DNA of 48,945 nt from a bacterium HR08 (GTDB taxonomy: Bacteria > Acidobacteriota > Blastocatellia > HR10): the NCBI GenBank assembly GCA_002898775.1, contig BEHK01000003.1:1-48945 (forward strand), read 5' to 3'. The position numbers and the translations under genes are program-made. Below are positions 9,592-11,778 of the stretch, in pieces (position 1 is the first letter of the stretch; each line of letters begins with the position of its first letter). The notes under the pieces were generated by a model. The model was not told the DNA's origin, made no database searches, and was given only the letters and a program-made list of their open reading frames with translations.

Positions 9592-9627
9592 CCCAGCGTC
9601 ACCTCGCGCCAGTTTCTGCCACACGCG

Positions 9628-9850
9628 AGCGGGCAGGTCTCCTGACTGAGTCCCTGGCTCATCCGCGCGATGAGCAGGTCGAGCGCCTTCCCAGCCGTCA
9701 CCGGCCAGTGGCCTGAGTGCCGACCATGCGGGACATCACAGTGGCGAGGGCCGTGCCGGACTTTCACCGGACTTCCCTATTCTCCCGAAGCGCCCTCACG
9801 CCCGCAGGCGCTTCGGGCACCCGCCGCGCTGTGAAAGAACCTCGTGATAG
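9628..9850 (-). ncRNA. Cobalamin (AdoCbl) riboswitch
   Basis: Read on the minus strand, the region carries the hallmarks of the cobalamin riboswitch in the right order: GGGAAGTCCGGTGAAAGTCCGG, then GCCACTGTGATG, and finally the B12 box AGTCAGGAGACCTGCC (9647-9632), which lies about 40 bases before the btuF start. The long GC hairpin at about 9785-9820 is a peripheral stem. The ligand-binding core so close to the first gene fits repression of the btu operon when B12 is plentiful. Boundaries are approximate. Confidence 0.93.
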
Positions 9851-9856
9851 GAGGGG

Positions 9857-9886
9857 AAAATAGCACCCCGTGTGCGAGGGTGTCAA
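9857..9886 (-). promoter_or_regulatory. Promoter of the B12 uptake operon
   Basis: On the minus strand a consensus TTGACA (9886-9881) and TATTTT (9862-9857) are separated by 18 bases, placing the transcript start near 9850, exactly at the 5' edge of the riboswitch. The agreement of the two independent signals makes this a good candidate. Confidence 0.62.
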
Positions 9887-10018
9887 GCGAAGAAGGCGAA
9901 CCGGCTCAGGCGCTTCTCGCACGAGCCGACGATCGAAGCGCGGGACAATGACCGCGCCGATTCGGCAGAAGGGTTTTCAATATGGTCATCCCTCCCTTAC
10001 CGCACCTTGCCCGCCGCA

Positions 10019-11044
10019 TCAGCGTTCGACCAGGCGAGCTTTGACGATCCTGCCGGACGGGCGATACTCGAAGTAGAAGTTCCCCTGCGGATCCACGCCG
10101 ATCAAACGACCCCGCTCAGGAGCCGGCACAGGGACTTCGACCATCTGCCCACTTGGTGAGATGAGAACGACCAGGCTTTGGAAAGTCCCCGCAGGAGTCC
10201 TCCGCATGATGTTCACAGCGACGCGATCGTGCCATATCCCGACGCCCTCGACGAAGTCGCTCTCCGAGAGGAGCGAGCGTTGAACTTCCGAGCGAGCGGC
10301 GCGCGCCGGAGCCGGGAGCGTCCGAAGGTCGAACGTCGCTTCCACGCGAGGAGCATCCCCATCGAAAGTGAAGATGTGAAGCGGGGAGACGAAACGATCC
10401 GGGGGCACAGGGCGATTCGGATAAAGGAGCAGGCGCCCGCGGCTGAGCGCCAGAAGCGAACGGGACATCGCTCGAACCCTTCGGTCAAGCGGGAGAGAAG
10501 CGTCCCACGATCCGAAAGCCGCGATCTCGCGTCCGTCTTGAGCGAAGACGTGAACGATTGTCCCATCCAAGTGCTCGAATCGAGCTTCCTGCCCGGAGTG
10601 GACATGAGGGCCGACGGCATAAATGTTCCCAGCGTCGTCTACGAGCAACAGTTCGGGATGGAGCGTCGGGGTCTCGATCGTGCGAATTGGCGCCATCTCG
10701 GGTGAGAAGATCCGAATGCGACTTCGGTTACCCTCCATCTGCCAGAGGTAAATGTGACCCCGCCGATCCACAGCAATGGCCAGCGAGGAGAAAAACGGAC
10801 TCTCCAGCGTCCGAACGACACGACCCTGCGGGCTGATGACGACGAGGCGACCCGGGCCAGTCAAAAGGCCACGCGTGAGCTGCACTTCATAAAGATAGAG
10901 CTGACCGTCTCCCCCCATGAAGGATCGAAGGACAGAAGACTCGTTGAATCGAGGAATCCTCACGCTCCATTCCTCGACGAACTCGACCTCCTGAGGGGAC
11001 GCGTACAGAAGGAGCAGAAGCGTCATGGAGAGGAACGCATTCAT
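10019..11044 (-). CDS. Secreted beta-propeller protein (6-bladed / NHL-like)
   Basis: A 341-residue protein with a signal peptide (MNAFLSMTLLLLLYASP). The rest consists of repeated strands with propeller-type turns: DGQLYLYEV, VISPQGRVVRTLES, AVDRRGHIYLW, DDAGNIYAVG, FAQDGREIAAFG, ISPSGQMVEVP, GVDPQGNFYF. This matches secreted six-bladed beta-propeller (NHL/TolB-like) proteins. The start at 11044 has GAGGAGGAGAG upstream; the longer open frame runs back through the cysteine-rich gene in another frame. It lies 13 bases after that gene, so the two are probably co-transcribed and the products may meet in the periplasm or outside the cell. No catalytic residues can be named. Confidence 0.75.
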   Translation of the reverse strand: MNAFLSMTLLLLLYASPQEVEFVEEWSVRIPRFNESSVLRSFMGGDGQLYLYEVQLTRGLLTGPGRLVVISPQGRVVRTLESPFFSSLAIAVDRRGHIYLWQMEGNRSRIRIFSPEMAPIRTIETPTLHPELLLVDDAGNIYAVGPHVHSGQEARFEHLDGTIVHVFAQDGREIAAFGSWDASLPLDRRVRAMSRSLLALSRGRLLLYPNRPVPPDRFVSPLHIFTFDGDAPRVEATFDLRTLPAPARAARSEVQRSLLSESDFVEGVGIWHDRVAVNIMRRTPAGTFQSLVVLISPSGQMVEVPVPAPERGRLIGVDPQGNFYFEYRPSGRIVKARLVER

Positions 11045-11057
11045 CGCTCTCCTCCTC

Positions 11058-11396
11058 TCAAGGCATCCGCGAGAGTGCCCATCCCCCCTCCTCCTGAGGA
11101 GGCCGACAACTCGGCGCGGCCGCGCAGACATAGATGTCGACGACCTGGTCACAGTTGCCGTCGTTATCACAGCAATAGCCCTCGAAGGGACCGCCATTCG
11201 GATGGCAATTGCTTTGGGGATAGGGCGATCGTACGCACCACTGGCTCCAGCAGTTTTCCGGATCACACATCCATTCACCCGTACACCAGTACCCGCATCC
11301 TCCCTCACCATACCACTGGGTCTTTGAGCGGATCGGAACCGACAGGGTGAGAACCAGAACGGCGACAGTCGCAATGGGCCACATTCTCCTTCGCAT
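11058..11396 (-). CDS. Small secreted cysteine-rich protein, unknown function
   Basis: A 112-residue protein. Residues 6-24 are a hydrophobic signal sequence. The mature part is short, rich in Trp, Gly, Asn and Pro, and has eleven cysteines between residues 34 and 97 (34, 38, 44, 49, 54, 64, 75, 76, 82, 91, 97). The dense spacing suggests a disulfide-knotted or metal-binding fold. AGAGGTGG a few bases before the ATG at 11396 supports the start. It is directly upstream of the beta-propeller gene. I do not recognise the family. The odd cysteine number leaves one free for a cofactor, a partner or a dimer. Confidence 0.65.
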   Translation of the reverse strand: MRRRMWPIATVAVLVLTLSVPIRSKTQWYGEGGCGYWCTGEWMCDPENCWSQWCVRSPYPQSNCHPNGGPFEGYCCDNDGNCDQVVDIYVCAAAPSCRPPQEEGGWALSRMP

Positions 11397-11778
11397 ATGC
11401 CACCTCTCTTCCTCTCGCTTCTACGACTGCTTGGCAGCTGCGATTATACTGTCTGTCTGTCAAGGCCCTCTCGCACATTCTCCCGAGCGGCGATCCGGCT
11501 CTCGGGAACCGATGCCGCGAGAGCCCCTGAATGCCCGGAGCCGACGAGAGCACCGCCGTCACCGGCAAAGAAAGACCGGTAGGGCACGAGCGTCACGCCC
11601 CTTCTTCCACGTGATCGTCTCCGGCCCGAGGCCGTCGGGCGCGATTGAAAGGGGGCGCCGCGTCGGCGCTCGCGGGAAAAAGCGGGTTTACAAATTTCCC
11701 GAAACGGAAGGCATCGCGCGGGCATCTAAGCGGGTGGCAGTGAAGAGGTGCGAGACGACGATGACGAGGAGGCGAACG
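11397..11778. other. Divergent intergenic region between the cysteine-rich gene and mreB
   Basis: About 380 bases without a credible gene. A leftward TATAAT is present at 11448-11443, with TTGACA upstream at only 9 bases, inside a short GACA tandem repeat; the spacing is wrong for a normal sigma-70 promoter, so it is a weak candidate for the cysteine-rich gene. A small hairpin (CTCTCG ... CGAGAG, about 11491-11515) is present. I see no clear promoter for mreB. Open frames crossing the region have no family features. Confidence 0.4.

Follow-up and report, generated by a model that had tools for sequence, protein, structure and literature searches.

A candidate two-part extracellular module from an accessory island in the Acidobacteriota: an orphan cysteine-rich protein and a predicted NHL propeller

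Small exported cysteine-containing peptides of the Bacteroidales, known as NVEALA, adjoin six-bladed propellers (DUF5128, PF17170). A small cysteine-rich subunit and a propeller are also combined in methylamine dehydrogenase (MADH), which has a propeller heavy chain and a TTQ light chain and whose beta subunit has six disulfides (PMC7876137). Quinohemoprotein amine dehydrogenase (QHNDH) is encoded by qhpABCDEFG. Its QhpC contains Cys-Asp/Glu thioethers, has a leader that is cut by QhpE, and is exported by QhpF, with the radical SAM protein QhpD being needed (PMC7876137).

The gene pair analyzed here is located in a window of 48,945 nt of bacterium HR08 (Acidobacteriota; contig BEHK01000003.1). 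Both genes are on the minus strand. The first (11058–11396, stop included) starts with ATG at 11396 and encodes a cysteine-rich protein of 112 residues. Its stop codon is separated by 13 nt from the ATG at 11044 of the second gene (10019–11044, stop included), which encodes an exported-looking propeller of 341 residues. Purine-rich, ribosome-binding-like sequences precede both start codons. A preliminary description of this locus had given the same size for the cysteine-rich protein and the same spacing, with exact outer coordinates (10019 and 11396), and had regarded the pair as standing alone. This is borne out by the surroundings, as mreB lies upstream in the opposite direction and the btuF operon downstream is separate. 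The latter is headed by a cobalamin riboswitch (9615–9839, minus strand; Rfam RF00174, 94.6 bits) and comprises btuF/btuC/btuD-like genes and a TonB-dependent-receptor-like gene. A terminator-like stem 3' of the propeller gene (9864–9882, minus strand), a weak candidate based on a consensus match only, overlaps a promoter-like site of this operon.

The cysteines of the small protein are at positions 34, 38, 44, 49, 54, 64, 75, 76, 82, 91 and 97, giving a core (residues 34–97; 11106–11297, minus strand) with 11 cysteines in 64 residues, as noted previously. This is the highest cysteine density in the window; the runner-up among the 255 ORFs of at least 64 residues that were scanned has 9 cysteines in 64 residues. 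The N-termini of both proteins are hydrophobic and signal-peptide-like, judging from sequence and hydropathy, in agreement with the signal peptide proposed earlier for the small protein. In the latter, this region covers residues 1–27 (11316–11396, minus strand), where the alignment also supports it, and the precursor is probably cleaved near residue 27 (SKTQ-W; SKAQ-W in the related bacterium HR10).

Comparison of the mature cysteine-rich frame with HR10 gives a pN of 0.18 and a pS of 0.85. Over the same gene, pN exceeds pS in four of the five alternative frames; the fifth is antisense, has the degenerate codon position in common with the cysteine-rich frame and, as expected, gives the signal of the latter in weaker form. 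The cysteine-rich frame is thus under purifying selection and therefore translated, and the untranslated frame that the preliminary description had named as grounds for its own rejection did not occur. The choice of a simple codon-score gene caller, which favored extending the propeller ORF so that it overlaps the cysteine-rich ORF, would fit the latter not being a gene. A pN/pS of about 0.2 largely refutes this explanation, a cysteine pattern kept in three species also speaks against it, and we consider it hardly credible.

No match to the cysteine-rich protein was found in Pfam (E≤1), NCBIfam, PHROGs, PADLOC or the PDB sequences, the last searched with both the single sequence and a profile. 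PDB matches to the IgE receptor (E about 3) were attributed to composition and rejected as chance, and the AlphaFold2 model (pLDDT 47.7) was uninformative. The preliminary description had recognized neither a toxin nor an enzyme, and no known family of either kind was matched here. The protein represents a new orphan family in a modestly new arrangement.

The propeller could be modeled with AlphaFold2 (pLDDT 74.6, pTM 0.77, from an alignment of two sequences only). NHL domains, those of Mei-P26 and Brat, rank best in a Foldseek search with this model (E about 1e-9, TM-scores by target of 0.62–0.73), and a profile of five sequences also finds NHL chains among the PDB sequences (best E 3.4e-5). 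The window protein passes no Pfam cut-off and has no NHL match in Pfam at E≤1; one relative from the alignment matches Pfam NHL at E 0.01. Overall, the secreted propeller of the earlier account is predicted to be six-bladed and of the NHL type. Peptidyl-alpha-hydroxyglycine amidating lyase, at Foldseek rank 9, was also considered. The lyase requires several metal-binding histidines, whereas only one histidine (His165) is invariant in the propeller alignment, and this reading was therefore set aside.

The pair is conserved in HR10, with 63% and 67% identity (locus L011, on the same contig as G002:C16), where the ORFs share a 4-nt overlap. A second homologous pair is found in G008, a species from another family of the same order, at about 30% identity (about 29% for the cysteine-rich protein). 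Here (L016), the cysteine-rich gene occupies 2079–2429 and the propeller ATG follows about 11 nt further on; the pair adjoins another propeller, in a genomic context unrelated to that of the window. These three species, from two families, are the only carriers found, and the adjacent genes have the same order and strand in all of them. The three cysteine-rich proteins, which are related by profile, share the pattern C-x4-C ... QWC-x-R-S-P-x-P ... CCD, with conserved residues Trp28 and Gln52-Trp53-Cys54. All 11 cysteines of the window protein are common to HR10. The core contains 12 cysteines in both HR10 and G008, and HR10 has one more in its tail. Because the relatives have 12 core cysteines and Gly73 replaces a cysteine of HR10, the odd number in the window appears to reflect the loss of one cysteine or an assembly error.

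Profile searches of 162 genomes of the class and 396 of the phylum revealed no convincing member of the cysteine-rich family beyond the order. Weak matches in G053, G119, G269 and G462 (E 0.001–0.009) are antisense, frame-broken or within unrelated genes, and none is beside a propeller; they were dismissed as chance. Collections of plasmid and viral sequences contained no match.

The two genes are the only ones on an accessory island of ∼1.8 kb (about 9895–11675), located between mreB and the riboswitch/btuF operon and delimited by an empty-site BLAST comparison, a drop in identity to HR10 and a contrast in dS. In the sister species G001, G003 and G004, mreB and btuF are adjacent, with 331–497 nt between them, and both genes of the pair are absent. 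In the empty site of G003, BLAST shows sequence matching window position 11676 joined directly to that matching position 9894. Identity between the window and HR10 is 41–80% within the island and mostly 85–99% outside. Among the corresponding dS values, that of the propeller is 1.13 and that of the cysteine-rich gene is saturated, compared to 0.16–0.38 for eight flanking genes; even a comparison of the window with the other sister species gives a lower dS (0.64–0.88) than the island does against HR10. Third-position GC is also lower in the island (0.56–0.69) than outside (0.72–0.84). Since the island is far more diverged than its flanks, the simplest reading is a joint acquisition or replacement of both genes in one lineage or more. 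A transposase, terminal repeats and a target duplication were looked for at the island ends, and none was seen. The preliminary description had pointed to co-occurrence across genomes as a check on the pairing and to non-adjacent homologues as its refutation. Instead, the two genes are neighbors in all three carrier species, which represent two families, and jointly missing from three sister species, with one exception.

The exception is G009, where a close orthologue of the propeller adjoins ABC-2 permeases and has no cysteine-rich gene beside it. In G008, a stray fragment corresponding to the C-terminus of the paired propeller (L016:6492–6800, plus strand) is located at the position of the full copy in G009. 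The placement of this fragment makes rearrangement or recombination between propeller copies likely in G008/G009. The solitary orthologue in G009 would suit a different explanation, in which a generic NHL binding protein and an unrelated secreted factor are neighbors transported on one island but acting separately. NHL propellers are, furthermore, very common across these genomes. This explanation, a serious contender that we nevertheless consider unlikely, is at odds with a gene order and a short spacing that are preserved in two families and in two different genomic contexts, as well as with the clustering of exported cysteine-rich ORFs beside propellers.

This clustering was seen in 396 kb of relatives' loci, which contain 10 exported cysteine-rich small ORFs; seven of these have a same-strand propeller no more than 150 nt away, in a set of loci that were chosen for propellers and with two of the seven being the window finding and its orthologue. 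In a control with shuffled DNA, about one exported cysteine-rich ORF was found anywhere per set. Besides the pair itself, such pairs occur in G005, on contig 11 of HR10 (two) and on contig 62 of G008. The association thus appears to be a recurring theme in the order, which supports the pairing without being proof of one mechanism, as the window protein is not detectably homologous to those compared with it and the loci were selected for propellers. In particular, no homology was detected between the window protein and the cysteine-rich neighbors in G005 and on HR10 contig 11 (131-residue protein), nor to the fused region described below.

The additional loci differ in their make-up. In G005 (L098, 9478–10966, plus strand), a different exported Cys/Trp-rich protein of 136 residues is encoded 20 nt before a divergent propeller. 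The HR10 cluster (L048, 508–7530, minus strand) contains a redoxin-propeller, a 94-residue exported peptide with 10 cysteines, two DUF3526-type ABC-2 permeases, a 131-residue Cys/Trp-rich exported protein and another propeller. A redoxin, a propeller, a 93-residue exported peptide with 10 cysteines, a second propeller and two ABC-2 permeases form a one-strand run in G008 (L089, 2148–9254, minus strand). The window's own genome and its relatives also encode related exported propellers whose C-terminus bears a fused region of 8 cysteines (L041:3050–4474, minus; L042:6621–8354, plus; L043:6683–8158, plus; L017:6788–8167, minus; L044:6870–9005, plus; L045:5248–7170, minus), which in some of them is followed by a DxNxDG-type segment. 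The start of one such fused propeller, in the sister species G001, is overlapped by a gene for a 109-residue exported small protein with a short cysteine stretch (L017:8164–8493, minus strand).

Clusters with paired ABC-2 permeases and redoxins are a make-up also known from export and immunity operons. This, together with the accessory nature of a cassette that has jointly diverged or been exchanged, could suggest that the small protein is a secreted disulfide-rich antagonistic peptide (bacteriocin-like) spread by conflict, for which the propeller would serve as binder, carrier or partner in self-protection. However, the locus of the pair contains no exporter, processing or immunity gene, and the family and defense collections searched (PADLOC, PHROGs, Pfam and NCBIfam) returned no match. 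The start of the small protein is ordinary and Sec-like, and selection on its mature part is purifying rather than diversifying. We thus consider an antagonistic role improbable.

A lineage-specific extracellular binding module is the likeliest interpretation, ahead of a housekeeping enzyme. Specifically, we put close to an even chance on the two proteins being a co-exported, two-part module in which a disulfide-stapled protein pairs with the propeller and which would act in binding. With the second ORF 13 nt after the first, one short transcript would probably carry both, allowing the two proteins to be made in step, and their N-termini suggest that both would leave the cytoplasm by Sec export. 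Once in the periplasm or on the cell surface, the small protein may be stapled by about six disulfides, as suggested by the 12 conserved cysteines of its relatives and by a VKOR disulfide-forming enzyme present in all six genomes checked, including the window's own. The stapled protein, with its conserved Trp28 and Gln52-Trp53-Cys54, might then dock on or cap the propeller and set its binding, and the complex would recognize an extracellular ligand or partner. Between lineages, the cassette would move as a whole, by gain or by exchange, in keeping with the joint gain or exchange seen at the island. The module is favored by the shared order and strand of the genes in all carriers, their joint absence and divergence, the gathering of exported cysteine-rich ORFs and fused 8-cysteine regions around propellers, the NHL fold and VKOR. 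Against it stand the solitary propeller of G009, the lack of detectable homology between the small protein and the fused region or the neighbors compared with it, the odd cysteine number of the window copy and the small number of carrier species. A more detailed version of the binding module is tentative and, in our view, rather unlikely to hold in full. In this version, the cassette would be specific to the lineage and exchanged horizontally, and the new disulfide-stapled family would confer specificity on an exported NHL propeller, as its ligand, cap or antagonistic effector; the cassette would also be one of several cysteine-rich/propeller modules that were built independently in the lineage.

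The locus provides a fixed partner for an orphan family of secreted, disulfide-rich proteins. It also offers a clean natural comparison, with some sister species having the cassette at this site and others lacking it. Should the small protein confer specificity on the propeller, the pair would amount to a simple and portable module for recognition in a poorly known lineage, and there are practical uses for disulfide-stapled binders.

How the pair relates to known systems can now be considered. It resembles MADH in its broad layout, an exported propeller and a small exported subunit with a similar number of cysteines (about six disulfides), and the two conserved tryptophans (28 and 53) would fit a quinoprotein amine dehydrogenase, in which a cysteine-rich small subunit with tryptophylquinone is docked on a propeller large subunit. 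The preliminary description had suggested a comparison with the small subunits of quinohemoprotein and methylamine dehydrogenases. The MADH heavy chain does appear in the Foldseek list, but as a poorer match to the propeller than the NHL domains (rank 19 on, TM-scores 0.41–0.44 for the first), and the searches of Pfam and PDB sequences with the small protein found neither the MADH light chain nor QHNDH. The pair shares with QHNDH a larger subunit and a cysteine-containing one of about 9 kDa; in contrast, it has a Sec-like small-protein start and no adjoining qhp genes (diheme alpha subunit, QhpD, QhpE, QhpF and QhpG). No maturation gene of the mau or qhp type is found beside it, where the neighbors are mreB and btuF/C/D. 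Membership in either system thus lacks support from family, sequence or best fold, and we consider the quinoprotein reading very unlikely. The pair also differs from the NVEALA/DUF5128 pairs, as PF17170 finds nothing for the window propeller or in its own genome and the cysteine-rich protein has no Pfam match. The clusters on G008 contig 62 and HR10 contig 11 are similar in having an exported cysteine-rich ORF 7–38 nt from a propeller; however, their small proteins look unlike that of the window, extra genes are present and the pair order is sometimes different. A literature search for small cysteine-rich proteins paired with propellers found nothing relevant, consistent with the earlier suggestion that the pairing may be undescribed. 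The propeller itself is most like the solved NHL propellers (PF01436; domains of Brat, Mei-P26 and TRIM2/3) by predicted fold, top structural matches and profile matches, from which it differs in being bacterial and exported and in its identity of 12–14%. In a combination not found in the literature searched, the locus joins this known fold to an orphan disulfide-rich partner.
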